This document shows, one piece after another, positions 9,046 to 36,323 of a stretch of DNA of 38,058 nucleotides. The stretch is from assembly GCA_903927965.1 (NCBI GenBank), contig CAIYPA010000128.1:1-38058 (forward strand), in the 5' to 3' direction. The notes beneath the pieces are model-generated. The model searched no databases. It was not told the DNA's origin and saw only the letters and a program-made list of their open reading frames with translations. The position numbers and the translations under genes were made by a program. Origin of the DNA: an uncultured Bacteroidia bacterium. GTDB taxonomy: Bacteria; Bacteroidota; Bacteroidia; Bacteroidales; Prolixibacteraceae. The stretch's first letter is position 1. Every line of letters begins with the position of its first letter.

Positions 9046-9063
9046 ATGAAAATAAGATCTGCC

Positions 9064-10488
9064 ATGAAAAAAATTATTTTTTTGCTTTTATTTGCATTAC
9101 TGTTTTTGAAAGCCATTTCCCAGAAAGAATATATCTATACAAATATGGACAACGGTGTGGAGGTTAAGTTTCCTTCCAAACCTGAAATTACTTATAATGA
9201 AACTGACTTTGTTGTATCTCTCTTTAAAGAATACAATGCCCTATTGAGCCTTAAATCTGCGGGATTGGTTTATAAAGTATCCATAAATAAAGGATCGGGA
9301 AAAGTATATGTAAGTGCTGCCGAAAGTTTAGAGGGTTTTAAAAAAAATTTTCATCCAAACATCAGTAAGGAATATGTAATAGGAGGCAAAAAAATAACGG
9401 AATTTGATATGTCATCTGGTGGTGGATGTACGAGATACAAAATAATTGACATCAAAAAGGGTTATGTAGACCTTTCCGTTACAAGCCAAACGTGTGCGCA
9501 GGACAAAGATGTGTTGCCATTTTTCAATTCGCTTAAAATTGATGGCATTGAAATCAGGGATCCGAATACCGGCCCAAATCAATTCAAAAACTTTGCAATA
9601 GATTATGCCCCAAAAACAAAAACCGATACCGTCAGGCAGATTGTCTATGTCAATACGGGCGCGAAGCCTACCTATCAATATGAAAGATCATCGGATGTGG
9701 ACAAAAATATCCCCAAAAGTGTGAATAGTAACCCATTGCGATTTGCATTAATTATTGGAAATGAAGATTATAGTTCCCATCAGGTGGATATGACTTCTGA
9801 GATCAACGTCGATTTTGCGAGAAACGATGCCAGTGCTTTCAAGGAATATGCCATTCAAACTTTAGGTATTCCGGAGAAAAATGTGGTCTTTTTGTTGGAT
9901 GCCACGACTGGTGTGATGAACCAGGCATTTTCAAAAATGAACCTGATCATTAAAAACACACAAGGTAATGCCGATGTTTTTTTCTATTATGCCGGTCATG
10001 GTCTTCCGGATGAAGTGACCAAAGAAGCCTTTCTTATTCCGGTGGACGTAAGTGGGAAAAATGCCGGTGAAGGAATTAAGCTACAAAATACCTACTCTAA
10101 ACTTACTGAATACCCTTCCAAAAGAATAACCGTATTTATTGATGCCTGTTTTTCGGGAGGAGCGAGAAATCAAGGATTGTTAGCTGCCCGTGGAATAAAA
10201 ATCAGGGCCAAAGAGGATCCTTTAAACGGAAACCTCGTTGTCTTTACAGCAAGTTCAGGCGAACAATCATCTCTGGCGTTTAAAGAAAAGCAACATGGAA
10301 TTTTCACCTATTTTTTGCTGCAAAAATTACAGGAATCAAAAGGATCAGTAAGTTACAATGAATTGTCAAAGTATATCCACGACAATGTTTCATTACAATC
10401 AGTATTAATTAACGACAAAGAACAATCTCCGCAGGTCAATGTTAGCAATTCAATAGGCAGTGAGTGGGAAAAATTTGATTTGAAATGA
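9064..10488 (+). CDS. Exported caspase-fold cysteine protease, copy 2 (tandem paralogue)
   Basis: The frame is open from an ATG at 9046, directly abutting the TAA of copy 1. The ATG at 9064 is preferred because it gives the same signal peptide start as copy 1 (MKKIIFLLLFALLFLKAISQ), and a protein of 474 residues. Domain order is identical: signal peptide, N-terminal domain starting YIYTNMDNGVEVKFPSKPEI, linker ending YERSSDVDKNIPK, and the caspase-like domain. The dyad is intact: His312 in YYAGHG and Cys362 in DACFSGG. By eye only about 30 residues differ across the roughly 250-residue protease domain, whereas the N-terminal domain is much more diverged. That suggests a conserved proteolytic core with different sensing or targeting parts. 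Confidence 0.87.
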   Translation: MKKIIFLLLFALLFLKAISQKEYIYTNMDNGVEVKFPSKPEITYNETDFVVSLFKEYNALLSLKSAGLVYKVSINKGSGKVYVSAAESLEGFKKNFHPNISKEYVIGGKKITEFDMSSGGGCTRYKIIDIKKGYVDLSVTSQTCAQDKDVLPFFNSLKIDGIEIRDPNTGPNQFKNFAIDYAPKTKTDTVRQIVYVNTGAKPTYQYERSSDVDKNIPKSVNSNPLRFALIIGNEDYSSHQVDMTSEINVDFARNDASAFKEYAIQTLGIPEKNVVFLLDATTGVMNQAFSKMNLIIKNTQGNADVFFYYAGHGLPDEVTKEAFLIPVDVSGKNAGEGIKLQNTYSKLTEYPSKRITVFIDACFSGGARNQGLLAARGIKIRAKEDPLNGNLVVFTASSGEQSSLAFKEKQHGIFTYFLLQKLQESKGSVSYNELSKYIHDNVSLQSVLINDKEQSPQVNVSNSIGSEWEKFDLK

Positions 10489-19567: not shown

Positions 19568-20842
19568 TTACAACTTATCCGCATTTTCCAGCAGATACGC
19601 CTCCGCTTCCGTGCTCCACAACCCTTTGTGGTTGTCGCAGATTTCGGCCAGACGGGCATAAACCGGATTGGTCAGCCCCTTTTGGGCAAATTCAGCAATT
19701 GGGGTTAAAGGCATTTCTATGTGATTGTAAATCAACTTCTTTCCACCTGGTATTTCAGGAAGGTGAAGGGTCGTCTCAATTACTGCATTGATCCCTCCAA
19801 TATGGGTGACCAAACCCGCAGGATCAAGCCCTGCCGACATCAATTGAAGGGCTTCCTTCATATCATCGGTATTGCCACCGCTGGTTCCAACGACATGGGT
19901 ATAGGCATAATGGACATTGTAGAAATTCAACGGCGCCTTAAAATTTGGATCAGAAGGACCCGCGAAGAAATTTAAACAACCGTCGAATGCCAGAAGCGCA
20001 TCAGCCTGTTCAATTACCGGAGCAACAGGAGCAAACACAAAAATGTCGTTATAACCCTCACCACCACTGATTGCTTTCAACGATTCGATGGCATTTGCAA
20101 ATTTGGAAGTGTTGATGTATTGCAGATCAATCCCCCTTGATGCAGCAAATTCGACCGTATATAAGCCGGCAGCCCTGTCCAACCGGGTCTGATCAATGTC
20201 GGTGACCACCAGCAACGAAGGTTTGCGGTCTTCGCGGTGAAGGACATAGTTGATGGCAGCCAATCCCATCGGGCCTACACCTGCCAACAATGCCATTTTG
20301 CCCCCATCAACGATCTCCATCTTGTGGATATACGACCCCGGATTGGTGTGGTAATTGGCATGAATTGCACCAATCACACAGGAAAGGGGTTCTGATAAAG
20401 ATGCCGGATAAAAGCCTTCGCCGTGGAATGGAAGCAAACAATCGGCTTCCATTACCTCGTTCGGAATGATCACATAGGTGGCATCCCCACCAATGTAACT
20501 GTAGGAATAACCCGGTGCCCCCAAAACCCCAACCGGACTTCCCGGGAAATTGATGGCTGGCTGGATCGAAAATTTGTCACCGACTTTGAATTTACCCTGC
20601 CATTTTGCACCTACGTCAACCAACTCACCAGCGAACTCATGTCCGATAATGGGTGGATTGGTGGCACAATCGTCAGGTACCCTTTTGTGGTCGGAACCCT
20701 GACTTGCGGCCTTGTACGACGACATGCAAATGCTGTCGCACACCACTTTGGCCAATATCTCGTTTTCATTGATTGCCGGAAGCTCGAACTCTTCCAATCG
20801 CAAATCTTTCTTTCCGTATAAACGGACTGCACGTGTTTTCAT
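19568..20842 (-). CDS. Zinc-type medium-chain dehydrogenase, L-sorbose-1-phosphate reductase (SorE)-like
   Basis: The 424-residue MDR protein has the catalytic-zinc Cys39 in VVCDSICMSSYKAAS, the GHEFAGELVDVG motif (His68, Glu69), and a Rossmann glycine motif LLAGVGPMGLAAINYVL. It ends with IPGGKKLIYNHIEMPLTPIA. The overall plan and length are those of SorE-type enzymes, which reduce a ketose phosphate to a polyol phosphate or run the reverse reaction with NAD(P). It is the last gene of the GntR-linked cluster, separated from the SDR gene by 271 bases of repeats. The real substrate is unknown. Confidence 0.75.
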   Translation of the reverse strand: MKTRAVRLYGKKDLRLEEFELPAINENEILAKVVCDSICMSSYKAASQGSDHKRVPDDCATNPPIIGHEFAGELVDVGAKWQGKFKVGDKFSIQPAINFPGSPVGVLGAPGYSYSYIGGDATYVIIPNEVMEADCLLPFHGEGFYPASLSEPLSCVIGAIHANYHTNPGSYIHKMEIVDGGKMALLAGVGPMGLAAINYVLHREDRKPSLLVVTDIDQTRLDRAAGLYTVEFAASRGIDLQYINTSKFANAIESLKAISGGEGYNDIFVFAPVAPVIEQADALLAFDGCLNFFAGPSDPNFKAPLNFYNVHYAYTHVVGTSGGNTDDMKEALQLMSAGLDPAGLVTHIGGINAVIETTLHLPEIPGGKKLIYNHIEMPLTPIAEFAQKGLTNPVYARLAEICDNHKGLWSTEAEAYLLENADKL

Positions 20843-20858
20843 GATTGATATTTTTTAT

Positions 20859-21118
20859 GCTACTGGTAGCTGGCTGATTACAAATTATACATCAGTTACC
20901 AGATTGTCTATTTTATTATATTCTATTGAATTACATTAAGTTCAACCCTTTCAGGGTTGCATCGCTCCAACATTTTGAACCCCATGGGTTCCACCCATGG
21001 CTATTCAAATTAAACCCTTTCAGGGTTTTTAAAAGTCTGAAAGACTTAAACTTGATTTAAACGAATGCTAAAAAATAAGTTATCTTAACCAGCCAGCCGC
21101 CAATTGCCAGCTGCTAGT
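20859..21118. repeat. Repeat-packed spacer between the SDR and zinc dehydrogenase genes
   Basis: No gene. In order it holds a CTGGTAGCTGGCTG unit (20865-20878), the palindrome AACCCTTTCAGGGTT at 20944-20958 and again at 21013-21027, a GAACCCCATGGGTTCCACCC segment (20978-21000), AAGTCTGAAAGACTT (21033-21047), and a CCAGCCAGCCGCCAATTGCC unit (21089-21108) reaching the SDR stop. These types are common in Bacteroidota spacers. Confidence 0.6.
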
Positions 21119-22298
21119 TTAACATATTCTGTCCTCCGGTTACCGGAACGGCCTGGCCTGTTTCGTATTCCTGTTCCATCACATACAAAATGGCGCGGAC
21201 AACGTCGATCACACGGCAACCCCTTCCTGCCGGTACCTGGGCCTCATAAAAGGCTTTCACATCTTCAATGTCTTTCGCACCAGGAACTTTACCAGCTTTG
21301 AGGTATTGAACGAACAACCCTTTTTCAGGGTCGCTCCACAAAGGTCCTTCAAAGAAGTTCCCCGGGCAGATCGAATTGACTTTGATATGATGCGGCATCA
21401 ATTCCATTGCAAAAGACTGCGTCAAACCAATTCCACCAAATTTTCCACCGGCATACGCAAAATTCTTGTTGCTCCCTTTCAGTCCCGATTTTGAATTGAT
21501 CTGGATGATGTCCATAAAATAGTCTTTCCTGAACTCAGACTGCACTTTCATAATCGCAGAGGCATATTTTGCGCAAAGGAAATAGCCGTTGTAGTTGACA
21601 TCGGTCATTACTGAAAAAACCTCGGGGGTCATTTCATCGAGGCTACCTGCACGGAGAATCCCGGCATTGCTGATGATCACATCCAATCCCCCAAAATGTT
21701 TTACAGTAGCAGCAACCATCTCCTCAACAGATTCAGGATCGACCACGTTTACTTTGACGAACCATGCTTTGTTGGTCTGATTCTTTGCATTTAGCACTGA
21801 AACCAATTTTTCACCTACCTCAACGTTCAGATCGGCAATTACTACATTGGCTCCCTGTGAATACAACTGTTCGGCAATTCCTCCGCCAAAACCTTGCGCC
21901 CCACCGGTAACAATCACAATCTTGTCTTGCACACGGCCCGAAAGTTTGGAGGCAGGAACTTCCTTTTCACCAAATAAGCTGTCAAGGGCAGCAGCATCAG
22001 GTGCAATCGCTACCAATCCCAATCCTTTTAATAAGATATAATCAGGATGAATGGATCGCGTTTCAGTCCACGTCGATAACTTGACTTCCAGATCTTCAAT
22101 AATTTCCTTCGGATCTGTTGTTTCATCAACAACCAAAACCTCCGTAGTTTTTTTGATAAAACTTAATTTAAGTAGATCCTCAACATGCTTAATAGAGTGG
22201 AATTCAGCACGGTCATCAAACCTGACCGACATAATATTATCCACTGAGGTTAACATCCTGATAGCAGGAACGACACGATTTATAATTAATTTATTCAT
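21114..22298 (-). CDS. SDR-family oxidoreductase with extra N-terminal domain (sorbitol-6-phosphate dehydrogenase-like)
   Basis: The 394-residue protein has an N-terminal region of about 135 residues, then a classical short-chain dehydrogenase. The SDR part has a nucleotide motif IVIVTGGAQGFGGGIAEQL, the NAG motif (IISNAGILRAG), a catalytic Ser in INSKSG, and YAGGK as YxxxK, followed by IKVNSICPGNFF. Within the N-terminal part, HPDYILLKGLGLVAIAPDAA resembles the region that links aldolase and dehydrogenase in bifunctional rhamnulose-1-phosphate aldolase/dehydrogenases, so it may be a relic of such a fusion (inference). It starts 2 bases after the PHP gene stop and is translationally coupled to it. 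It is expected to oxidise a sugar or polyol (phosphate) with NAD(P). Confidence 0.75.
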   Translation of the reverse strand: MNKLIINRVVPAIRMLTSVDNIMSVRFDDRAEFHSIKHVEDLLKLSFIKKTTEVLVVDETTDPKEIIEDLEVKLSTWTETRSIHPDYILLKGLGLVAIAPDAAALDSLFGEKEVPASKLSGRVQDKIVIVTGGAQGFGGGIAEQLYSQGANVVIADLNVEVGEKLVSVLNAKNQTNKAWFVKVNVVDPESVEEMVAATVKHFGGLDVIISNAGILRAGSLDEMTPEVFSVMTDVNYNGYFLCAKYASAIMKVQSEFRKDYFMDIIQINSKSGLKGSNKNFAYAGGKFGGIGLTQSFAMELMPHHIKVNSICPGNFFEGPLWSDPEKGLFVQYLKAGKVPGAKDIEDVKAFYEAQVPAGRGCRVIDVVRAILYVMEQEYETGQAVPVTGGQNMLN

Positions 22299-22300
22299 AT

Positions 22301-23530
22301 TCAGTTCCTTGTCAAATATTCAATTAATGCTTTTCCCAGTGTTACAAAGTTTTTCTTTTGAGTCTGATCTGGACGGCCATTCTTGTCAAGATAGCCGGAA
22401 CCCTCAGTTGCAACAAGATATTGATGGGCAGCAGTAATGCAGGCACCTTCGTAATTAATGTCGAGCACCTTCTTTGAAAGTGGAGTACTGTTCCTTGCAA
22501 AAAGTTCAATCGGTTCCATAGCGGGTGTGTTGTGTTCCGATCCCAATGTAACCACCATTCCATTTTTGCTGAAATAAACAACATAATCCTCCACAACTGC
22601 AAGGCTATTTCTTGTCGGAATCAGCTCAATTGACCAGATATTCCTTTCCCTGAGCACTTTTAAGGCAGTAACTTTATCGCCTTCAAAGTCGGTAAAATTT
22701 CCATTGTTGTCATCGGCAAGGAATGGATAGGTGGGTATGCCACCAGCATTGAGGATAATCTGACAAACCATTTCCATATCAAGGAATGCTTCCGGACTTT
22801 CGGGAATAAAAGCAGCACCACCTGCCTTGAGAAGATTGCCCCTGATCTCATTTTCAATGGCCGCAAAATTCCCTATAGCTGACTTCAATGACTTTCCACC
22901 GAAAACAGTTTTATAAAATTCCTGCTGCCCTTCTTCAGAAGGAAATTGGGCGACAATCTTTTCACGGAGTGCCTTGGCAAGATGCCGTTCACGAACCATC
23001 CCTTTGGTTAGGGTAGCTTTTATCTCTTCAAAATCAAGCTGAAAACCGGCATTATAACCTGCAAGGACTTCGTTGAGTTTTGCACACATTTGCTGAACCT
23101 GTAAATTGGATTCAATTTTAACAGATTCAAGCGTAGAGGCATAGGGTTCATCCAGTTTTGGAGGAAATGCCAATCCTTTGCCACTCAGGTAAGTACGACC
23201 AGGATTGTTGGGATCGTTCACTTTGATCCCGGCAGCCTGATCGGCGCGGTTCAGGCTGATCAGTTCGATGTTGAAAAGTGGGAAGATTTTCCTTTTTTCA
23301 CATCCTTCTGCCCATTCAGTATAACCATCCGTTGTGTAAAAATCATTGATACCAACAACTTTAACATTCTCATTAACAGACCTGTCAAGTGCGTCTGAAA
23401 TCTCTGCGAATGCACTGAAAGAGAAAGGTGTGTGCATATGGGCATTCACCAAACGGGTTTTACTGTCCCCATTTAGCGAATACCAGTCCAATAATTCATC
23501 CTTATCGGGAAATGTTTTCCAAAAATTCAT
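22301..23530 (-). CDS. PHP-domain protein, probable metal-dependent hydrolase or phosphoesterase
   Basis: The 409-residue protein carries PHP-type metal motifs near its start: NAHMHTPFSFSAF (His31, His33), GINDFYTTDGY (Asp63) and FNIELISL (Glu89). Later parts include GGIPTYPFLADDNN and VTLGSEHNTPAMEPIELF. I do not see the canonical C-terminal DxH, so the metal set may be incomplete or different. It is much longer than a minimal PHP domain, with an added middle helical section (about 120-240). PHP proteins hydrolyse phosphate esters or related bonds. Here it is coupled to the SDR gene (2-base gap) and follows the E1 gene, so it probably acts on an intermediate of the same pathway. Confidence 0.7.
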   Translation of the reverse strand: MNFWKTFPDKDELLDWYSLNGDSKTRLVNAHMHTPFSFSAFAEISDALDRSVNENVKVVGINDFYTTDGYTEWAEGCEKRKIFPLFNIELISLNRADQAAGIKVNDPNNPGRTYLSGKGLAFPPKLDEPYASTLESVKIESNLQVQQMCAKLNEVLAGYNAGFQLDFEEIKATLTKGMVRERHLAKALREKIVAQFPSEEGQQEFYKTVFGGKSLKSAIGNFAAIENEIRGNLLKAGGAAFIPESPEAFLDMEMVCQIILNAGGIPTYPFLADDNNGNFTDFEGDKVTALKVLRERNIWSIELIPTRNSLAVVEDYVVYFSKNGMVVTLGSEHNTPAMEPIELFARNSTPLSKKVLDINYEGACITAAHQYLVATEGSGYLDKNGRPDQTQKKNFVTLGKALIEYLTRN

Positions 23531-23589
23531 ATTGTATTGTATGTCAATATATTGTTAGAATAACCAAAATTTTCAAACATTAAAGATCA

Positions 23590-23690
23590 TCTTTTGCCAC
23601 TAAGACATAAAGGCTCAAAGTTACACAAAGAAATTATTAGCTTTTCCTTTGTGACCCTTCGTGTCTTCGTGTCTTTGTGGCATATTGATA
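23590..23690. repeat. Dispersed TTCGTGTCTTTGTGGC-type inverted repeat
   Basis: GCCACTAAGACATAAAGG and, farther on, CTTCGTGTCTTTGTGGC are imperfect inverted copies. This is a widespread intergenic text in Bacteroidota and other phyla. It separates the E1 gene from the PHP gene and may form a large hairpin that tunes downstream expression. Confidence 0.5.
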
Positions 23691-23702
23691 TTATTAACGT
23701 AG

Positions 23703-26171
23703 CTAAACTCCAAGTTTTGCCCTGCGGATCTGCTCAAGGTCGCTGAAGTTCTGACCCGAAACATGACCTTTCAATGGAACGATCTTTTCATGGACCGCAT
23801 CAACAAACCATTCTGGTTGCGGGAAGAATGCTTCCTCAAGTTCATAAGCTGGTGTGATCCAGTTCCTTGAACCTACAACAACAGGTGGTGCATCAAGATA
23901 GTCGAAAGCGAGTTCGGTAATGTTGCGGGAAAGCTCGTTCAGGAACGATCCGCGTGAATTGGCATCACCTGAAATCAGGATACGGCCTGTCTTTTTAACC
24001 GACGCGATCACCTTTTCGTAGTTAAATGGAACCAACGAACGGGCATCGATTACCTCTGCCGACAAATTGTATTTCTCCTGGAGAATTTTTGCCGCATCAA
24101 GGGCACGGTAAAGCGTGGCACCTATCGTTAAGATTGTGAGGTCTTTGCCTTCCCTTTTTATATCCGGCTCGCCAATTGGTATTTCGTAGTAACCTTCCGG
24201 GACACCGCCCTTGTGAAACTGCTCACCAATATCATAAACACGCTGGCTTTCAAAAAAGATAACCGGATCTGTTCCTTGTAATGCACTGTTCATTAATCCT
24301 TTGGCATCGTAAGGGGTTACTGGGAATACAACTTTCAAACCGGGGATATGGGCAACCAATGAAGTCCAGTCCTGTGAATGTTGGGCACCATATTTCGAGC
24401 CGACAGAAACGCGCAGAACAACCGGCATTGTGAGGACATTTCCACTCATGGCCTGCCATTTGGGCAACTGGTTGAAAACTTCGTCACCACACCTTCCAAG
24501 GAAATCGCAATACATGATTTCAGGGATCACGCGTCCACCACACATGGCATAACCAATGGCAGTACCCACAATGGATCCTTCAGAGATGGGTGAATTGAAC
24601 AAACGGTGGTAAGGCAGAGCCTCTGTCAAACCACGATAAACAGCAAACGCACCACCCCAATCACGGTTCTCTTCACCGTAGGCAACCAAAGTAGGATCTT
24701 TGTAAAAACGGTCCACAATTGCATCGAAAATGCCGTCCCTCAATTGGTATTGTTTCATCTTTGAGAATGGTTTCCCATCCGCATCGAATGCAAAACGCTC
24801 TTTTTTGGCGATCTGGATCACCCTTGGATTTTCGGCCATCGGATGGTTCACTTCGGGAACACGGTCTTCCATCTTGTCAACCGATTGGTTCGAGAAGATC
24901 ATTTCGCCAATCTGTTCAGGACGTTTCCGGATATCCATCCGTGGCGAAATCTCGTCATTGATGGAGAGCTTCATCATCTCAACAATAATCTGTTTGACAT
25001 CCGACCAGATGGCATCCAGGTTTGACTGGGTTGTTATTCCAGCATCAACAAGGCTTTTGCCAAAAGTCAGGATGCTATCCTGGGCCTGCCATGCCTCAAT
25101 CTCCTCCTTGGAACGATAAGACGATGCATCAGACGGTGAGTGGCCACTGAAACGATAGGTCAAAACTTCAAGCAAAACAGGGCCATTCTTCTCTTCGATC
25201 ACTTTCCGTTTACGACGGTAGGCATCAATCACTGCCAATGGATTGTAACCATCGACACGTTCAGCATGTAACTGTTCAGGGTTCACGCCGGCACCAATAC
25301 GGGCAACTTTTCCGTAACCCATTGTCTCACCGCAAGTTTGGCCACCCATCCCATACTGGTTGTTCATCACGTTAAAGATAACGGGCAAACCACCTTTCAT
25401 GTCTCCTTCCCAGAGGTTTTTGAACTGGTCCATGGCGGCAAAGGAGAGGCCTTCCCAAACAGGACCGCAAGCCATCGATGCATCGCCAATATTGGCAATC
25501 ACCATCCCCGGTTTACGGTTTATTTTTTTGTAGAGCGCGGCACCAACAGAGATGTCACCGCTACCCCCGACAATTGCATTGTTCGGATATACGCCAAATG
25601 GTGTGAAGAAGGCATGCATACTTCCGCCCAGGCCTTTGTTAAAACCGGTTTCACGTGCAAAAATTTCGGCCAACGTGCCATAGATCAGGAACCTGCGACC
25701 AAGTTCCTTTACTGTGCCGATGAAACCTTTTTTTACCACGTTCACGACAGTCCCGTCAAAGAATGTTTCCATGATTGAAGTAAGCTCTGCATCGGTCAGT
25801 TTCTGGATGGCACTTAATCCTTTTGCAAGGATCTCTCCATGACTACGGTGTGAACCAAAAATAAAGTCCTCAACAGTAAGGGTATAAGCCATACCGACAG
25901 CAGCAGCTTCCTGACCTGCTGAAAGATGCGCAGGGCCCGGATGGTCATATTTTACGCCACTGTATTCTCCGGTAGTTTTGATCAGGTTCAGCATGGTTTC
26001 GAATTCGCGGATCACCACCATGTCGTGATAAATGCGAAGGAAATCACTGTCCGAAAAATTCACCTTTTCCTCGGCAATTGTTTTGTTGTATTGATTTACC
26101 GGGATTGGTGTAAATACGATCTCTCCGGCTTGTCTGGCCACATTCGGGTCAATAAACTGAACTTTAGGCAT
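23703..26171 (-). CDS. Fused 2-oxoacid (or acetoin-type) dehydrogenase E1 alpha-beta
   Basis: The 822-residue protein joins the alpha and beta subunits of a thiamine-diphosphate E1. The alpha part (to about 430) has DFLRIYHDMVVIREFETML, GSHRSHGEILAKG, and the ThDP-binding stretch GDASMACG (229-236) through to NN at 270-271. A segment of about 45 residues (about 124-168) is inserted before GFNKGLGGSMHAFF, where most E1 alpha proteins are continuous. The beta part (about 465-822) has LVAYGEENRDWGGAF, FNSPISEGSIVGTAIGYAMC and VIDARSLVPFNYEKVI. With the E2 and E3 genes upstream it can build a complete complex producing an acyl-CoA, CO2 or aldehyde, and NADH. The substrate is not determinable from sequence. 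Confidence 0.88.
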   Translation of the reverse strand: MPKVQFIDPNVARQAGEIVFTPIPVNQYNKTIAEEKVNFSDSDFLRIYHDMVVIREFETMLNLIKTTGEYSGVKYDHPGPAHLSAGQEAAAVGMAYTLTVEDFIFGSHRSHGEILAKGLSAIQKLTDAELTSIMETFFDGTVVNVVKKGFIGTVKELGRRFLIYGTLAEIFARETGFNKGLGGSMHAFFTPFGVYPNNAIVGGSGDISVGAALYKKINRKPGMVIANIGDASMACGPVWEGLSFAAMDQFKNLWEGDMKGGLPVIFNVMNNQYGMGGQTCGETMGYGKVARIGAGVNPEQLHAERVDGYNPLAVIDAYRRKRKVIEEKNGPVLLEVLTYRFSGHSPSDASSYRSKEEIEAWQAQDSILTFGKSLVDAGITTQSNLDAIWSDVKQIIVEMMKLSINDEISPRMDIRKRPEQIGEMIFSNQSVDKMEDRVPEVNHPMAENPRVIQIAKKERFAFDADGKPFSKMKQYQLRDGIFDAIVDRFYKDPTLVAYGEENRDWGGAFAVYRGLTEALPYHRLFNSPISEGSIVGTAIGYAMCGGRVIPEIMYCDFLGRCGDEVFNQLPKWQAMSGNVLTMPVVLRVSVGSKYGAQHSQDWTSLVAHIPGLKVVFPVTPYDAKGLMNSALQGTDPVIFFESQRVYDIGEQFHKGGVPEGYYEIPIGEPDIKREGKDLTILTIGATLYRALDAAKILQEKYNLSAEVIDARSLVPFNYEKVIASVKKTGRILISGDANSRGSFLNELSRNITELAFDYLDAPPVVVGSRNWITPAYELEEAFFPQPEWFVDAVHEKIVPLKGHVSGQNFSDLEQIRRAKLGV

Positions 26172-26224
26172 ATAATTTTAAATATAATTTTTTAATGTTT
26201 GATATTCCTGTTTTTTCACCCCCT

Positions 26225-26240
26225 GCCCCCTGAAGGGGGT
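26225..26240. repeat. CCCCCT-GA-AGGGGG palindrome in the E1-E3 spacer
   Basis: Perfect 6-bp arms around GA, in a 124-base spacer that holds no gene. It is the same centre as the longer palindrome inside the LTA-synthase-like gene. As an RNA hairpin it could adjust E1 levels relative to E2 and E3. Confidence 0.5.
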
Positions 26241-26295
26241 TCCGACCAGAATTAAATTTTACTCCGATAGAAACTGGGGTTATAGGTGAATTTTA

Positions 26296-27660
26296 CTAAA
26301 ACGCAAATATTGTTTCTTTGAATATTTCCGAAACGGTAGGATGTGGGAACACAACTTCTTCCATTTCCTTGAGGGTCATCTCCATTTCGATGGCCATAGC
26401 GGCTCCATAAATGATTTCGCCGGAAGGGTTTCCAAGAATATGGACACCCAGGATTTCACCATATTTAGCTCCTACCAGAACTTTGCTAAGGCCACTTCCA
26501 CCCTCATTTTCAGCAATAAAGCGTCCTGCATAGGCCAATGGCAATTTGGCGACACGGTACTCTATGTTTTGTGCTTTCGCAGCTTCTTCCGTCAATCCGA
26601 CACCTGAAAACTCAGGGTTCGTGTAAACGACACCGGGTATGGCATTGTAGCGCATCCTGTCGGCACGGCCTGTAAGGTTATTCACAACAACCTCACCTTC
26701 ACGGCTGGCAGTATGGGCCAACAATGAGAATCCGGTAACATCACCAGCTGCAAATACATTGGGGACATTGGTACGCATCTTTTCGTCAACCTTGATCCCG
26801 CCACGATAGGTCTCAACACCAAGGTTTTCAAGTCCGAAACCTGTTGTATTGGCTTTACGTCCAACGCTGACAAGAATTTTCTCTCCGGAAACTGATTCCT
26901 TTTTGCCGTTCTTCTCAAAGATCACTTCATTGCCATTGACTTCGGTTACTTTTGCGGAAAGGTTGAAGACGATCCCCTTTTTGGCATACATTTGGCGCAA
27001 CATTTCGCTCATTTCGCGGTCCATCCCGGTAAGGATTTCATCCAACATTTCGACAATAGTGACCTTGGTTCCCAAGCTGTTGAAGAAACTGGCAAATTCG
27101 AGGCCAATTACGCCGCCACCTATAATTACCAATGAATCAGGACGTTGCTTTAGATCAAGTATTTCCCTGTTTGTCAGGATCAGATCGCCTGGTGCTCCAA
27201 GACCCGGAATTGGAGGAAGAAAAGCTTCAGAACCTGTGCAGATCAATAAATTAGTCGCCAAAACTTGTGTAGTACCAGCCATGATTTCGATCCCTGCTGC
27301 TGAACGACCCTTTATAAATGCTTCACTTTTAATTACTTCCACGTGATGCTCTTTCATCTTCAATCCAACGCCGCCAACCAGTTTTTTTACCACTTTTTGT
27401 TTGCGGGCCATCATTTTTGAGAAATCGAAGGTTACCTCTTTGGTTTCGATCCCATATTTGCTGCCTGCGAGGGCATTGTCGTATAATTTTGCACTGTATA
27501 ACAAGGTCTTTGTTGGGATACACCCTTCATTCAAACAAACTCCGCCGAGTTCGCTTTTTTCAATCAAGACCACCTTAAGTCCTTTGTGACCAGCTCTTTC
27601 TGCTGCTACATATCCGGCAGGACCCCCACCAATAATTGCTAAATCGAATGTTGTACTCAT
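26296..27660 (-). CDS. lpdA: Dihydrolipoamide dehydrogenase (E3)
   Basis: The 454-residue flavoprotein has the FAD motif DLAIIGGGPAGYVAAERAG and the redox disulfide in GGVCLNEGCIPTK (Cys42, Cys47). The NAD motif is VIIGGGVIGLEFASFFNSLG, the second FAD motif is NVFAAGDVTG, and the C-terminal dimer-interface base motif is HPTVSE. It reoxidises the dihydrolipoyl groups of E2 and makes NADH. The gene is 18 bases after E2 and belongs to the same operon, so this copy probably serves the complex encoded here. Confidence 0.95.
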   Translation of the reverse strand: MSTTFDLAIIGGGPAGYVAAERAGHKGLKVVLIEKSELGGVCLNEGCIPTKTLLYSAKLYDNALAGSKYGIETKEVTFDFSKMMARKQKVVKKLVGGVGLKMKEHHVEVIKSEAFIKGRSAAGIEIMAGTTQVLATNLLICTGSEAFLPPIPGLGAPGDLILTNREILDLKQRPDSLVIIGGGVIGLEFASFFNSLGTKVTIVEMLDEILTGMDREMSEMLRQMYAKKGIVFNLSAKVTEVNGNEVIFEKNGKKESVSGEKILVSVGRKANTTGFGLENLGVETYRGGIKVDEKMRTNVPNVFAAGDVTGFSLLAHTASREGEVVVNNLTGRADRMRYNAIPGVVYTNPEFSGVGLTEEAAKAQNIEYRVAKLPLAYAGRFIAENEGGSGLSKVLVGAKYGEILGVHILGNPSGEIIYGAAMAIEMEMTLKEMEEVVFPHPTVSEIFKETIFAF

Positions 27661-27678
27661 ATTTTTATCTCCTATAAT

Positions 27679-29007
27679 TTAAAGTTCGAACTCAAGGTTT
27701 TCAATTTCAACGGCGATTTGTTTCAGGAAACGGGTGGCTTCACCGCCATCAAGTGCCTGGTGGTCATAGGTCAGGCTAAGACCGATAAAGGGGACAAAAG
27801 CATAAACACCGTCACCCAAATCTTTGGGGCGTGGTACGATCGTGTTGACACCTAAAATCCCTACCTGAGGCAGGTTGATCACAGGCGTAAACATCTCCAC
27901 GCCATAATTTCCAAGGTTTGAGATTGTAAAAGAGGCAGCTTCCGAAGAGAGCAGTTCAGGATTGACTGACCCTTTCCGGCATGAAGCCGCAACTTCTTTC
28001 AACTGATTGGAAAGTCCCTGGATCGAAAGATCGTCCGCATTGCGTATAACAGGAACCATCAATCCACGGTCTGTGTCAACCGCAACGCCAAGATGAATTT
28101 TATTAAAGTATTTCACGCTATCGCCAAGAAAATGGGCATTGGCCTGAGGAAATTTCCGCAGAGCTTTCACCACTGCAAAACAAACCATGTCATTGAGGGT
28201 AATGTTTACAGGATAACCGCCATCGTTCGCTTTTTTTACTTTCTTGCGAAGTTCCAGCATCCTGCGTGCATCGGCACCAAGGTGGTGGGTCAACTGGGCT
28301 GAGTTCTGCAATGAATTGTGCATTGCTTTTGCAATCAACTTGCGGATATTTGTTAATTTCTTGATTTCAAAATCGTTGCTGTAAACCGGATTTGGAGCAG
28401 TGAGGTCTTTTGCTTTCACCGAACCGCCCAGGCCACTTCCCGTGGTTGAAGGTTGGAGCTGTTCCTGACCGGCAACGATCTTCGCCAGGGGTGTAATTTT
28501 AGGGGTAGATGCCAAAACTGAAAGGACATCCTGCTCTATGATCCTGCCTTTGGGGCCAGAACCATGTACCGCTTCGAGTGATAAACCTTCTTTTTCTGCG
28601 AGATTTTTGGCCCTTGGGGAAACAAATCCAGATACAACTCCGGAAGAAGCTATTGCATGAACAGATTCTTCAGTTTTTGAGGCGGAGTTTTCAGCGGTAA
28701 CAGCAACTTCAGGAATCGGTTCGCTTTTGGGGGCAGCTCCTCCGGGTTGGAATGTGTCGGTTGGTTCGCCAATTTCACCGATCACACAGACATTTGTAAG
28801 TACCGGGACTTCGTCACCAACTTCATAAAAAAGGTCGAGCAGGATACCATCCACATCGGCTTCTTCTTCAAAGGAGGCCTTGTCGGTTTCGTAGGCAAAC
28901 AGGATTTCACCCTTCTTTACCTTATCCCCTTTTTTCTTATTCCATTCTGTGATGATACAACTTTCAACAGATTGCCCTTGCTTAGGCATGATCACAACTG
29001 TAGCCAT
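27679..29007 (-). CDS. Dihydrolipoamide acyltransferase (E2)
   Basis: The 442-residue protein has one N-terminal lipoyl domain with Lys43 in YETDKASFEEE, a Pro/Ala/Glu-rich linker, and a peripheral-subunit-binding domain (VSPRAKNLAEKEGLSLEAVH and GSGPKGRIIEQDVL). The C-terminal catalytic acyltransferase domain ends with LTYDHQALDGGEATRFL, carrying the active-site DHQALDG. It forms the core of the complex and transfers the acyl group to CoA. It is the first gene of the long minus-strand cluster, read from the promoter at 29024-29054 and divergent from the GntR gene. Confidence 0.94.
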   Translation of the reverse strand: MATVVIMPKQGQSVESCIITEWNKKKGDKVKKGEILFAYETDKASFEEEADVDGILLDLFYEVGDEVPVLTNVCVIGEIGEPTDTFQPGGAAPKSEPIPEVAVTAENSASKTEESVHAIASSGVVSGFVSPRAKNLAEKEGLSLEAVHGSGPKGRIIEQDVLSVLASTPKITPLAKIVAGQEQLQPSTTGSGLGGSVKAKDLTAPNPVYSNDFEIKKLTNIRKLIAKAMHNSLQNSAQLTHHLGADARRMLELRKKVKKANDGGYPVNITLNDMVCFAVVKALRKFPQANAHFLGDSVKYFNKIHLGVAVDTDRGLMVPVIRNADDLSIQGLSNQLKEVAASCRKGSVNPELLSSEAASFTISNLGNYGVEMFTPVINLPQVGILGVNTIVPRPKDLGDGVYAFVPFIGLSLTYDHQALDGGEATRFLKQIAVEIENLEFEL

Positions 29008-29023
29008 AGAAATAAATTTTCCG

Positions 29024-29056
29024 CAAAGATATTCCTTTCAACTTGTATTTACAAGT
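29024..29056 (-). promoter_or_regulatory. E2-operon promoter with a GntR-like operator over the -33 box
   Basis: On the minus strand TTG (29054-29052) and TATCTTTG (29031-29024) are 20 bases apart, a good Bacteroidota promoter. The -33 box lies inside the perfect palindrome ACTTGT-ATTT-ACAAGT (29041-29056), which fits the general GntR operator form yGT(n)xACy. Binding here by the divergent regulator would block transcription of the cluster. Confidence 0.6.
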
Positions 29057-29062
29057 AAAACA

Positions 29063-29092
29063 ATTGAAATAATGGAAATAAATTGAAATAGT
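29063..29092 (-). repeat. 10-bp-phased TTTCAATTTA-type repeat upstream of E2
   Basis: On the minus strand the text runs TATTTCAATT, TATTTCCATT, ATTTCAATTG with 10-base spacing, the same unit and the same orientation relative to the downstream gene as at 12829-12912. It lies just upstream of the E2 promoter, where curved or AT-rich DNA could act as an UP-like element. Confidence 0.55.
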
Positions 29093-29115
29093 GATATATG
29101 TAATTGATCAACAAT

Positions 29116-29146
29116 ACATTAAATTTTTCGCAGAAAAATTTAATGT
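29116..29146. promoter_or_regulatory. Perfect 31-bp palindrome in the divergent gntR-E2 spacer
   Basis: ACATTAAATTTTTC (29116-29129), GCA, and GAAAAATTTAATGT (29133-29146) are perfect 14-base arms. Position between two divergent promoters suggests a regulatory site or a boundary between them. It is AT-rich and without a T-run beyond the arm, so a terminator is less likely. Confidence 0.5.
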
Positions 29147-29180
29147 AAATACAAATATTTATTTTTGTTAAAACTTTTAT

Positions 29181-29212
29181 TATTTTTGCACATTGAAAAT
29201 ATTAATCGGGAG
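29181..29212 (+). promoter_or_regulatory. gntR -7 box and Shine-Dalgarno
   Basis: TATTTTTG (29181-29188) matches TAnnTTTG; the nearest TTTG upstream is only 13 bases away, so the -33 part is weak. GGGAG at 29208-29212 is well spaced before the ATG at 29221 and is one of the few clear ribosome-binding sites in this window. Confidence 0.5.
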
Positions 29213-29220
29213 TAAAACAT

Positions 29221-29937
29221 ATGCCGCAAAATAAAGCAATACCGCAACACCGTAAAGTATATGAGGTCCTGCGTTCCCATATCACGGATGGTGTTTTTCA
29301 TGAAGGCGACTTGCTTCCTTCTGAAAATGAGCTATGTACTGTGCATAAGGTGACAAGACCAACCATCAGGAAAGCACTTGACCGGCTGGTCAATGAAGGG
29401 TATATTGTAAGGCATCAAGGGAAAGGGAGTATTGTAAAAGGTATTCCCAAAGGAGTTGGGATCCTTTCACTGACCGGAACAACATCTGCAATTGGGCAGG
29501 ACAATCTGTTGACACATATTGTGGTCAAACCCGAAATCAGGAATTGGCAGGAGGCTTTTACATTTCCGCTGAATCAGCGTGAAGTGGAGTCGGGTTGCAT
29601 CTATATGGAACGGCTACGGTTGGTGAACAACAAACCTGTGTTTTTCGACATCACAATGATCCCCAACATTAACCTTCCCAGGTTTACGTCCAGAAATTTT
29701 GAGAACAAATCGCTTTTTGATGTTTTGCGCAAATACTATCAGGTGGAGGTGAAAGGTGGTGAGCAAAAACTCCTTTCGATAGTTGCTGACGAACGGTTGA
29801 TGGAATATTTTAAGGTAGGACCCGGTCACCCTGTTTTACAATTGAACCGCAAGATCGAAACCAACCGATCTGGATTCTATATCTATAGCCAGGTGTTTTG
29901 CAATACTGCCGAATATGCGCTTTATGGGATTTTCTGA
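29221..29937 (+). CDS. GntR/HutC-family transcriptional regulator with UTRA ligand domain
   Basis: The 238-residue protein has a GntR winged helix in residues 7-72: HRKVYEVLRSHITDGVFHEG, LLPSENELCTVHKVTRPTIR, then KALDRLVNEGYIVRHQGKGS. A UTRA domain fills the rest: CIYMERLRLVNNKPVFFDIT and HPVLQLNRKIETNRSGFYIY. UTRA domains bind small sugars, sugar phosphates or carboxylates. The gene is divergent from the E2-E3-E1-PHP-SDR-MDR cluster, with palindromes between, which strongly suggests it controls that cluster and itself. It is likely induced by the pathway substrate or an intermediate. Confidence 0.92.
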   Translation: MPQNKAIPQHRKVYEVLRSHITDGVFHEGDLLPSENELCTVHKVTRPTIRKALDRLVNEGYIVRHQGKGSIVKGIPKGVGILSLTGTTSAIGQDNLLTHIVVKPEIRNWQEAFTFPLNQREVESGCIYMERLRLVNNKPVFFDITMIPNINLPRFTSRNFENKSLFDVLRKYYQVEVKGGEQKLLSIVADERLMEYFKVGPGHPVLQLNRKIETNRSGFYIYSQVFCNTAEYALYGIF

Positions 29938-34355: not shown

Positions 34356-36323
34356 CTATTTTTCAATAACTAAATGGTCCTGCGCCATACGGTTATTGAA
34401 CTGCTGGACAATTGCCATTAAAAGTTTTTCCTGTTCGGGAAATTGAACCTTACCCAAAAGATTATGAAGCAGATACGGATCGTCCTTCCTGTTAAAGATA
34501 CCCGAAACCTTTCCTTCACTGAAATAGAAAACAAAATCTCCGTAAAGGAACTGATAAGCCTCTTCGGGATAGTTGATCACAAACCGGGGCGACTTGGGGT
34601 CAAAAAGGTTGTTCCCAAAAGCAACATAGGGTTTTGAATAGTTCAGGTAACCCAATATCGAAGGCATTATGTCGATCTGTTCGGCCAACGAAGTATCGAC
34701 ACCAGAAAGGCTGTTGTCACCCTTATAAAAGATCAGTGGCACAGCATGTTCCATCACATTGGTCTTGTACTCCTTAAAGTCAGATTCGGAACAATGGTCG
34801 GCAGTGATTACAAATAAAGTATTTTTAAACCAGGGCATTTTAGATGATTTTTCAAAGAACTCCCTCAATGCCATATCGGTATAGCGGATACATTTCTGAA
34901 GGGGGATGTCTTCTTCAGGAAACTGTTTCTGGTATTGCTTTGGAACCACAAATGGATGGTGCGACGAAACAGAGAAAATGGTCGTCATGAAAGGTTCCTT
35001 CATCTTGTTCATCTCATCGGCAAAGAACTGAAAAAACGGCTCGTCCCAGATTCCCCATACTCCGTCAAAACCATCATCGTGACCATATTCGTTCTTTCCG
35101 AAATATCGCTGGTAACCCGCAATCTTCGTAAAAGCATCGAAACCCATCGAACCATTCGGGGCACCATGGAAAAAGGAGGTTTGGTAACCCTCACCATTCA
35201 AAACACTTGCCAGGCTGTTGATCCGGTTTCCCGATCTTTCCGAAATCACGTAGGGCAAAACCAATGCCGGGATACTTGCTGTTACAGAAGGGATTGCGTC
35301 GATCGATTTGCGTCCGTTTGCAAAAGCATTTGAAAAAACAAGGCTTCTGGTGATCAATGAATCTAGAAAAGGTGTGTAGCCTTTGTATTGTCCATTTTTC
35401 AGATCTTTGTTCAACGATCCCACAAATTCGCGGCTGAAACTTTCGAGGATGATCACAACAACATTGTCTTTTTTTAGACCCTCACCTGAAGGTGAGGGTA
35501 ATTCAGATGGGGGGAATTCATTTCTGACTGGAGAATAAATCTTTTTCAATTCATCTTCGGGCAAAAGGTCCATAACCAGAAACGCTTTCTTCCCCCATGT
35601 TCGGATGATGCAGAAAGGGGTATTGGTCACAAGCGACATGTCGCGCGTTGAATTCACATATTTACCGGCATTGTTCATGTTGATAGGCCGTGTACTTGGC
35701 ATGTAACCGCCCCGCATTCCAATCACGCTCAGATAGGCAACCACAAGTAAGCCACACAATGATACTATGCCATACTTCCAGCTCCTAACCTTTACAACTG
35801 AGGGACGTGGCGTGAAGACAGAATAGAGGTATGACAACAATAAAATTGTAACAAGCACAATTAAGGCAATGTACCAGAAATCGTAGAAAAACCTGAATAC
35901 AAGTTTGTAGTTCCCGGCATCATAACCCACAATATCAAAAACACTGGCAGTGGTCCGTTTTAAGATAAAACGATAGTATATTATGTCTATGTGATTGAAT
36001 GCCAACCCTATACCATTGATGACCATAAATAGCCATTTCAGGAACAGCTGGTAACCATTGTTGAATTTAAAGGGAAATGGAAGGAGATAGAAAACAAAAT
36101 ACAAAACATTGAGGTACAATACGGCGCTTGTATCGAACATTACCCCACCCCTCATAATTTGTAAAAAGGAGGAAAAGGAAATATTGGGGAATAGCGAAGT
36201 GTTGAAAAGGTAAAAGATGATCCGCCCGATTGAATACAAAAGCATAACGATTGAAAACCTGTAAACCATTACAAGGTATTCGTTTGCCGGTATCTTCTTA
36301 TTTGAAAAACTATATAATTTCAT
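34356..36323 (-). CDS. LTA-synthase/MdoB-like membrane phosphotransferase (alkaline-phosphatase superfamily)
   Basis: The 655-residue protein has five membrane segments in residues about 15-205 and a periplasmic sulfatase-fold domain from about 287. NVVVIILESFSREFVG carries metal ligand Glu294. ANGRKSIDAIPSVTASIP carries the likely nucleophile Ser340, and VITADHCSESDF plus VMEHAVPLIFYKG give further metal ligands. Such enzymes move phosphoglycerol or phosphoethanolamine groups onto glycans or lipids in the envelope. The nucleophile region lacks C/S-x-P-x-R, so it is not a formylglycine sulfatase. The linker 274-284 (ELPSPSGEGLK) is encoded by a palindromic repeat. Confidence 0.85.
   Translation of the reverse strand: MKLYSFSNKKIPANEYLVMVYRFSIVMLLYSIGRIIFYLFNTSLFPNISFSSFLQIMRGGVMFDTSAVLYLNVLYFVFYLLPFPFKFNNGYQLFLKWLFMVINGIGLAFNHIDIIYYRFILKRTTASVFDIVGYDAGNYKLVFRFFYDFWYIALIVLVTILLLSYLYSVFTPRPSVVKVRSWKYGIVSLCGLLVVAYLSVIGMRGGYMPSTRPINMNNAGKYVNSTRDMSLVTNTPFCIIRTWGKKAFLVMDLLPEDELKKIYSPVRNEFPPSELPSPSGEGLKKDNVVVIILESFSREFVGSLNKDLKNGQYKGYTPFLDSLITRSLVFSNAFANGRKSIDAIPSVTASIPALVLPYVISERSGNRINSLASVLNGEGYQTSFFHGAPNGSMGFDAFTKIAGYQRYFGKNEYGHDDGFDGVWGIWDEPFFQFFADEMNKMKEPFMTTIFSVSSHHPFVVPKQYQKQFPEEDIPLQKCIRYTDMALREFFEKSSKMPWFKNTLFVITADHCSESDFKEYKTNVMEHAVPLIFYKGDNSLSGVDTSLAEQIDIMPSILGYLNYSKPYVAFGNNLFDPKSPRFVINYPEEAYQFLYGDFVFYFSEGKVSGIFNRKDDPYLLHNLLGKVQFPEQEKLLMAIVQQFNNRMAQDHLVIEK
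35478..35499. repeat. Perfect 22-bp palindrome inside the LTA-synthase-like coding frame
   Basis: ACCCTCACCT-GA-AGGTGAGGGT lies in frame and encodes the PSPSGEG part of the linker between membrane and catalytic domains. Its CCT-GA-AGG centre is shared with the intergenic palindrome at 26225-26240, and related to 12708-12726. Confidence 0.7.

Follow-up and report, generated by a model that had tools for sequence, protein, structure and literature searches.

A conserved Bacteroidales gene cluster with a distinct E1 enzyme, possibly a module for 6-deoxyhexose breakdown by acyloin cleavage

The window analysed here, a stretch of 38,058 nucleotides from an uncultured bacterium of the Prolixibacteraceae (contig C128 of an assembly of 7.57 Mb in 584 contigs, 98% complete), carries a cluster of six genes on one strand together with a divergent gene for a GntR/UTRA regulator (Table 1). 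The six genes encode the E2, E3 and fused E1 components of a complex of the 2-oxoacid dehydrogenase type, a protein with a predicted PHP fold, an SDR and an MDR. A sequence-only reading of the same DNA had described this arrangement; all the genes lie where that reading placed them, and Pfam and NCBIfam models confirm the families. The fused E1 comprises E1_dh, Transket_pyr and Transketolase_C domains (Pfam). The spacing of the genes is compatible with a single operon, with a possible break or internal promoter in the 271-bp gap before the MDR gene. We propose that the cluster is a module for the 6-deoxyhexoses L-fucose and L-rhamnose, sugars that are plentiful in plant, algal and host glycans.

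Conservation of the cluster and its upstream palindrome

The cluster is a strongly conserved unit. Among 295 genomes of the order, the window's own counted, the PHP protein is encoded in 40, spread over 28 of 178 genera, and the 822-residue E1 in 41. The sequence-only reading had suggested a search for co-occurrence of these two proteins and the SDR, and all 40 PHP-positive genomes do carry the E1 (Fisher p 8.6e-49 over the 295 genomes, a value that ignores phylogeny). In the single genome with E1 and without PHP (G680), the E1 is broken by an internal stop and its match is limited to residues 382–821; the locus itself (L146) has the appearance of a decayed cluster, with the E1 as two open reading frames, a fragment of E2, the GntR and MDR genes remaining and no PHP match. 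The SorE-type MDR occurs in 39 of the 40 PHP-positive genomes (G050 being the exception) and in none of 20 PHP-negative genomes, a subset of the 255 in the order sample that also serves for the isomerase comparisons below. Within a nearer sample the PHP protein is found in 34 of 61 genomes, again with the window's own counted. PHP and E1 lie on different contigs in seven of the 40 genomes (G042, G499, G579, G587, G660, G689 and G716). For some of these cases a broken contig could be the reason; in G042, G579 and G716, however, the neighbours of E1 or PHP in the fetched flanks are other genes, so adjacency is not the sole basis for pairing the two proteins. In the phylum at large the E1 is scarce (two of 395 sampled genomes at an E value of 1e-200, the window's own being one of the two). 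The named relatives with the cluster are Bacteroidales, Prolixibacteraceae and similar, among them Petrimonas (L111), Proteiniphilum (L109) and Alkalitalea (L091). In the relatives compared, the cluster E1s are 71–95% identical.

The gene order recurs throughout the order. A survey of 100 loci fetched via the PHP protein (20 stretches from relatives plus the best 80 of 544 matches, with genes labelled by best BLAST hit; L004–L015, including the window, stand outside the count) contains 71 loci with E1, PHP and MDR and 51 with all six genes, of which 50 are distinct, as L017 and L068 are one locus of the same content counted twice. The genes are thus kept together in relatives, as would be expected of the dedicated unit that the sequence-only reading had proposed. 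No E1 is visible in 15 of the 100 loci; many loci end at contig edges, and in others the E1 is located elsewhere. Partial versions include PHP–SDR–MDR without a complex nearby (for example L021, L023 and L024) and E2–E1 without E3 (for example L018 and L031).

The GntR gene is divergent from E2 in relatives too, and the region between them contains a palindrome, ACTTGTA-NN-TACAAGT, which is exact in the window. It recurs with at most one mismatch in 20 of 21 GntR–E2 intergenic regions, window included, a count made in the same 21 regions from which the consensus was derived; the palindrome is exact in 15 of them, and L090 has two mismatches. Ten first-order Markov resamples of the window contain no copy with two or fewer mismatches. 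Loci L016–L035 and L144–L152 lie outside the consensus set, but L017 repeats L068, and L143 shares a contig with L052. In L144 and L152, which have no adjacent GntR gene, the palindrome likewise lies before E2, and in L154 a copy with two mismatches lies before the aldolase–SDR gene. We propose this palindrome as a candidate operator of the GntR regulator.

Table 1 Cluster features in the window
Feature	Position	Strand	Remarks
MDR zinc-type dehydrogenase, SorE (L-sorbose-1-phosphate reductase) family	19568-20842	(-)	424 aa
SDR, sorbitol-6-phosphate dehydrogenase (SrlD)-like	21114-22298	(-)	394 aa
Predicted PHP-fold protein	22301-23530	(-)	409 aa; some canonical metal ligands apparently replaced; isomerase or epimerase proposed
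Fused alpha+beta thiamine-diphosphate E1	23703-26171	(-)	822 aa; distinct clade
E3 dihydrolipoyl dehydrogenase	26296-27660	(-)	454 aa; TIGR01350 500.7 bits vs cut-off 408.8
E2 lipoyl acyltransferase	27679-29007	(-)	442 aa; lipoyl PF00364, E3-binding PF02817, catalytic PF00198, all above cut-off
Palindrome ACTTGTA-NN-TACAAGT, proposed GntR operator	29041-29056	.	33 bases upstream of E2
GntR/UTRA (HutC-type) regulator	29221-29937	(+)	238 aa; PF00392 and PF07702 above Pfam cut-off

Linkage to L-fucose and L-rhamnose genes

In relatives the cluster adjoins the genes for L-rhamnose isomerase (RhaA), rhamnulokinase (RhaB) and RhaT, in L076 that for L-fucose isomerase (FucI), and in L053 those for fuculokinase and FucP. 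At least one rhamnose or fucose isomerase, kinase or RhaT gene lies within the fetched stretch in 20 of the 51 six-gene loci. At the genome level, FucI scores above cut-off in 31 of 40 PHP-positive versus 5 of 20 PHP-negative genomes and RhaA in 36 of 40 versus 7 of 20; one or the other is present in 38 of 40 versus 7 of 20 (Fisher p 1.2e-6, likewise ignoring phylogeny). Most telling on which sugar the cluster serves are the loci of two genomes. In G575 (L143), genes for FucI, fuculokinase, FucP, a transaldolase-family protein and GntR are followed by E2–E3–E1–PHP–SDR–MDR, with no aldolase inside. In G638 (L147 and L204), the upstream part encodes FucI, fuculokinase, the fucose mutarotase FucU, a permease 35% identical to FucP of L053, an AraC-type regulator and GntR, and the cluster part reads E2–E3–E1–PHP–SDR–HAD–MDR–transaldolase family. 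On account of this gene context in relatives, the assignment of the module to 6-deoxyhexoses is highly probable, and the dedicated route anticipated by the sequence-only reading gains a likely class of substrate.

Several observations pull the other way. No rhamnose or fucose isomerase, kinase or RhaT gene was seen within the fetched stretch of 31 of the 51 six-gene loci, and two PHP-positive genomes (G554 and G579) have neither RhaA nor FucI at cut-off. The window genome has its FucI and RhaA genes on contigs C150 and C498, apart from the cluster, and the stretches fetched around them show no convincing palindrome, RhaA starting at a contig edge with its promoter out of sight. A gene of the transaldolase/FSA family (TAL), to which the proposed route would assign a role, is present in four of the 51 six-gene loci.

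Families of the complex, the two dehydrogenases and the PHP protein

The E1 falls under the cut-offs of pyruvate dehydrogenase (PDH) models (TIGR03182, 192.4 of 393.85 bits; PRK09212, 235.7 of 321). In a tree of 20 E1 rows, the cluster E1s and those of alphaproteobacterial plasmids form a nine-row clade with 100/100 support and a long stem, separate from PDH (two rows), acetoin dehydrogenase (Aco, three rows) and branched-chain 2-oxoacid dehydrogenase (BCKDH) rows; its position among them is unsure, and a Rhodococcus row placed beside the cluster clade is a warning of long-branch effects. Pyruvate:ferredoxin oxidoreductase (PFOR) is matched in all 40 PHP-positive genomes, in 38 above cut-off and in two by fragments. 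Six of these genomes (G499, G529, G587, G612, G660 and G716) have a single match to the E2 catalytic family PF00198; in five the lone E2 lies beside the cluster E1, and in G660 it is on another contig. Of the 51 six-gene loci, 14 have a lipoate-protein ligase gene nearby. The PFOR matches and the six genomes with a lone E2 argue that the complex is not the housekeeping PDH. An ordinary PDH or BCKDH, which would have counted against the sequence-only reading, was rejected on the separate E1 clade and the PFOR match in all 40 genomes. The other E1s found on four stretches of relatives are one OGDH-like protein of 905 residues and two fused proteins of about 680 residues.

Cleavage to an acyl-CoA, as the sequence-only reading had it, is plausible, and the E1 motifs leave an acyloin versus an oxoacid as substrate undecided. 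Three features tell against an acyloin: the E1 does not group with AcoA/AcoB in the tree, its loop reads GHSPSD as in PDH-like E1s versus GHFEGD or GHYVGD in the compared Aco sequences, and the window E2 is PDH-like, with a 2-oxoacid_dh catalytic domain, and not AcoC-like.

The alphaproteobacterial plasmid E1s are 52–54% identical to the cluster E1 (in 15 of 16 records the match spans 80% or more of the chain) and are mostly annotated 'alpha-ketoacid dehydrogenase subunit alpha/beta'. Three of their loci, on plasmids of Rhizobium (L121), Pleomorphomonas (L124) and Agrobacterium (L125), encode a lipoyl protein standing alone together with an alpha/beta hydrolase that matches the model of the acetoin dehydrogenase E2 (AcoC) best, below the full-length cut-off as expected of halves; such AcoC-type halves are seen only with these three E1 loci. 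The same loci hold sugar transporters of the ribose type and sugar-type regulators, and the Pleomorphomonas locus has a xylulokinase gene above cut-off, beside which the E1 could cleave 1-deoxyxylulose-5-phosphate. Plasmids offer no match to the PHP protein, which is therefore lacking from the rhizobial E1 loci. In a genome of another Bacteroidota class (G180; L142, 5391–12446), an E1 (60% identity) and a SorE-type MDR (50%) accompany a protein of the mannitol-1-phosphate dehydrogenase family (93 bits, cut-off 357) in place of the SDR; this protein may be a different hexitol-phosphate dehydrogenase that fills the SDR position. A FucP/GluP-like permease is also encoded there, with a GH92 gene downstream, and no PHP gene is seen in the stretch. 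That PHP is not seen in either setting counts against the proposed route. A plasmid of Clostridioides difficile (L157:2010-7930) carries genes for a sugar-binding regulator, E1 alpha and beta, E2 and dihydrolipoyl dehydrogenase beside an MFS transporter and GH43, and may represent another sugar-linked operon of the 2-oxoacid dehydrogenase type.

The alphaproteobacterial loci bear on an explanation in which the substrate of the complex would be a 2-oxo acid derived from a sugar or some other deoxyketose, the fucose and rhamnose genes being mere neighbours in polysaccharide-degradation loci. Such a substrate would suit the same-clade alphaproteobacterial E1s with their xylulokinase and ribose-type transporters, the GH43 gene that neighbours L091 and the majority of six-gene loci in which no rhamnose or fucose gene is in sight. 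The six genes, however, include no sugar-acid dehydrogenase or dehydratase, the linkage extends to both fucose and rhamnose gene sets, and the enrichment of RhaA or FucI holds across whole genomes. We regard this explanation as improbable.

The two dehydrogenases are of the sugar-phosphate or polyol-phosphate type, as the sequence-only reading had recognized. The MDR is 53% identical to SorE of K. pneumoniae over its full length (225/423); its identity with further annotated SorE proteins and with proteins of the E. coli YggP type is 50.6–54.2%. The SDR is 33% identical to E. coli SrlD over 272 columns; its best NCBIfam model, first of 212 families matched, is PRK12384 (219.9 bits, below the cut-off of 307), and SrlD, on a long branch, is the nearest non-cluster row in the SDR tree (81/86 support). 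The reaction of SorE is the reduction of a ketose-1-phosphate at C2, and that of SrlD the oxidation of a hexitol-6-phosphate, likewise at C2; in the L-sorbose pathway, the corresponding pair moves the carbonyl from a ketose-1-phosphate to a ketose-6-phosphate. The cluster shares with that pathway a SorE-type reductase and an enzyme of the sorbitol-6-phosphate dehydrogenase type. It differs in the proposed substrate, a 6-deoxyketose-1-phosphate, in the transfer of the product to an E1–E2–E3 complex, and in that its SDR is SrlD-like and shares only 25% identity with the sor-locus SDR of K. pneumoniae (recorded as an SDR family oxidoreductase), which we take to be SorD. The two successive oxidations suggested by the sequence-only reading are not favoured; we infer that a redox-neutral pair of reductase and oxidase, which would move the keto group, is more probable.

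The SDR also raises the question of an aldolase. Its first 120 or so residues correspond to the middle part of a fusion found in most relatives, a protein of about 650–670 residues that joins a class II aldolase to the SDR at its C-terminal end; the aldolase domain is missing in the window. The fusion occurs in 29 of the 51 six-gene loci and the SDR alone in 22. Besides the window lineage and G638, loci such as L019, L020, L027 and L095 have the form without the aldolase. A double-aldolase protein is encoded in 22 of the 51. One such protein, of 432 residues with two tandem class II aldolase domains (L111:14438-15736), exemplifies a type that lies near the cluster in many Bacteroidales. In the window genome, contig C320 (L199:7444-9880), separate from the cluster, encodes a detached aldolase half, 46% identical to residues 2–373 of the Petrimonas fusion, next to a double Aldolase_II protein. 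Class II aldolases are matched in 18 of the 19 genomes searched (five matches in G575 and six in the window genome); only G638, with 99% completeness, gave no such match.

A rival explanation is a classical route, in which an aldolase, fused or separate, would release dihydroxyacetone phosphate (DHAP) and L-lactaldehyde, the SDR and MDR would convert the latter to lactate and pyruvate or to propanediol, and the complex would be a dedicated PDH oxidising pyruvate. According to PMC3870299, RhaEW of Chloroflexus converts rhamnulose-1-phosphate to DHAP and lactate, and RhaEW-type fusions, which run the classical route, are reported in rha loci of Bacteroidetes too. The frequency of the aldolase–SDR fusion, the PDH-like loop of the E1 and the class II aldolases still present in the window genome all agree with such a route. 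The fusion itself, in contrast, is only 23.5–26.9% identical to its 25 best plasmid matches, which include annotated RhaEW-type proteins and of which many are annotated as bifunctional aldolase/SDR; its SDR domain is placed apart from the RhaW rows in the SDR tree, and one relative's fusion scores 224.7 of 567.75 bits with TIGR02632. On the first two of these grounds, the SDR as a piece of RhaEW was rejected. Also at odds with the classical route are the SDRs devoid of an aldolase domain, the SorE-like MDR, the universal PFOR match, the sub-threshold E1 in its separate clade and the union of fucose genes and complex in the G638 genome without a class II aldolase match. We judge the classical route unlikely as the function of the cluster. 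A classical aldolase branch may nevertheless operate in the window organism, yet the cluster occurs in G638 without any class II aldolase match.

A second use of the aldolase domain would be to supply a three-carbon acyloin. Lactaldehyde or propanediol would be converted by the MDR and SDR to hydroxyacetone, itself an acyloin, which E1 would split to acetyl-CoA and a one-carbon unit; the aldolase domain would keep a role, and the transaldolase/FSA-family protein of some clusters would be consistent with it. Against this stand the absence of any recognised formaldehyde-handling gene among the annotated neighbours, which are a part of all neighbours, the resemblance of MDR and SDR to hexulose-phosphate and hexitol-phosphate enzymes, and again G638. 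This possibility appears very remote.

The PHP protein serves as the most specific marker of the cluster. Its PF02811 match lies below the Pfam cut-off (21 versus 26.4 bits), and the family is found in 42 of 42 aligned PHP sequences, the window's included, at E values up to 1. Searches against sequences of the Protein Data Bank (PDB) gave no hit with the single sequence and chance-like hits only with a profile. An AlphaFold2 model (pLDDT 91) has as its best Foldseek hits RNase AM (YciV) and 2yb1 (E values of 7e-11 to 9e-11, 14–16% identity), and the predicted fold is that of PHP. In a weak alignment with E. coli RNase AM (0.6% probability), compared with the canonical set of PHP metal ligands, the HxH pair and the motif III Glu are kept (His31, His33 and Glu89), and Phe38 and Phe64 stand where the phosphoesterase has the motif I Asp and the motif II His. 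Both phenylalanines are invariant in the 42 sequences, and later ligands appear, as judged by eye, to be replaced too (Tyr268 and Asn334). The protein thus resembles the PHP phosphoesterases in predicted fold and differs from them in its low identity, in these apparent substitutions and in that all PHP genomes of the order sample carry E1. The ligand changes, as a lead from a weak alignment, argue against a standard multi-metal phosphoesterase; the dephosphorylation or hydrolysis assigned to PHP by the sequence-only reading is less likely on this ground, and a plain phosphatase was set aside. An IolM/inositol route was rejected as well, since the IolM match covers the first 92 residues only (57.4 of 450 bits).

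Elsewhere in the window are two neighbouring caspase-domain (Peptidase_C14) genes of 476 and 480 residues (7615–10488), and genes for a radical-SAM/SPASM protein (2547–3764) and a sulfatase (34356–36323), possibly an anaerobic sulfatase-maturing pair.

A proposed route through a 1-deoxyketose phosphate

Acetoin dehydrogenase uses thiamine diphosphate and lipoate to cleave an acyloin of the form CH3-CO-CHOH-R to acetyl-CoA and an aldehyde. The proposed module would enter 6-deoxyhexose breakdown after the isomerase and kinase. The SorE-type MDR would reduce C2 of L-fuculose-1-phosphate or L-rhamnulose-1-phosphate and the SrlD-type SDR would oxidise C5, a redox-neutral shift of the keto group to the position next to the methyl group that would yield a 1-deoxyketose-6-phosphate, CH3-CO-CHOH-R, an acyloin. 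The E1–E2–E3 complex would then cleave this acyloin, as acetoin dehydrogenase does, to acetyl-CoA, NADH and a tetrose-4-phosphate. L-Fuculose-1-phosphate and L-rhamnulose-1-phosphate differ solely at C4, as worked out by hand from sugar stereochemistry, and it is C4 that would become the aldehyde carbon, so that both sugars would yield one tetrose-4-phosphate and a single set of downstream enzymes would suffice for both. The shared product fits a cluster that adjoins fucose genes in certain genomes and rhamnose genes elsewhere. The product would be D-threose-4-phosphate if the MDR keeps the stereochemistry of SorE and L-erythrose-4-phosphate otherwise. PHP would isomerise or epimerise the tetrose phosphate toward erythrose-4-phosphate, which the transaldolase/FSA-family protein of some clusters would feed to central metabolism; PHP is the candidate because such a step is needed before transaldolase and all PHP genomes carry the E1.

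Gene content, conservation, co-occurrence, the linkage to fucose and rhamnose genes in relatives, the separate E1 clade and the conserved palindrome are observed; each reaction step and the sequence in which MDR and SDR act are inferred, the PHP step most of all. Acyloin cleavage by the complex has an even or marginally better chance of being correct, and the isomerase step is doubtful. As a whole, a 6-deoxyhexose module with acyloin cleavage is the best explanation of the cluster, held with a confidence barely above even. The wider proposal, that this is a further principal route for 6-deoxyhexoses beside the aldolase and non-phosphorylative ones, carried by an E1 of a new clade whose rhizobial members cleave other 1-deoxyketose phosphates, is tentative and somewhat weaker still.

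The proposed reaction shares with acetoin dehydrogenase (AcoABC with lipoamide dehydrogenase) the chemistry of acyloin cleavage and, in the alphaproteobacterial relatives of the E1, a two-piece AcoC-type E2. Unlike that enzyme, the cluster has an E1 of one fused 822-residue chain with another loop in another clade, a PDH-like E2 with an E3-binding domain, and sugar-phosphate-type dehydrogenases and a GntR regulator alongside. With the RhaEW and classical phosphorylative pathways of L-rhamnose and L-fucose, it would have in common the isomerase and kinase steps, and the aldolase–SDR fusion of relatives is distantly homologous; the window SDR differs in being without an aldolase domain. The classical pathway cuts by retro-aldol reaction at C3–C4, whereas the cluster is proposed to cut C4–C5 by an oxidative complex. 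Known phosphorylative breakdown of L-fucose releases lactaldehyde. The same product is given for phosphorylative rhamnose breakdown in PMC3870299. In the 1-deoxyketose route, no lactaldehyde or 1,2-propanediol would be formed.

No description of this gene set was found in the literature searched, and the route is apparently undescribed for fucose and rhamnose breakdown. If the proposal is true, deoxy-sugar phosphates would be split by a lipoate-dependent complex, a sugar cleavage of a new kind, and this would provide a substrate class for an E1 clade now mostly annotated as alpha-ketoacid dehydrogenase. A PHP-fold protein with lost metal ligands would have become a sugar-phosphate isomerase or epimerase, and the function of this uncharacterised PHP family becomes directly testable. 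For the Bacteroidales that carry the cluster, the predicted fermentation products would change, with acetate formed instead of propanediol or propionate.

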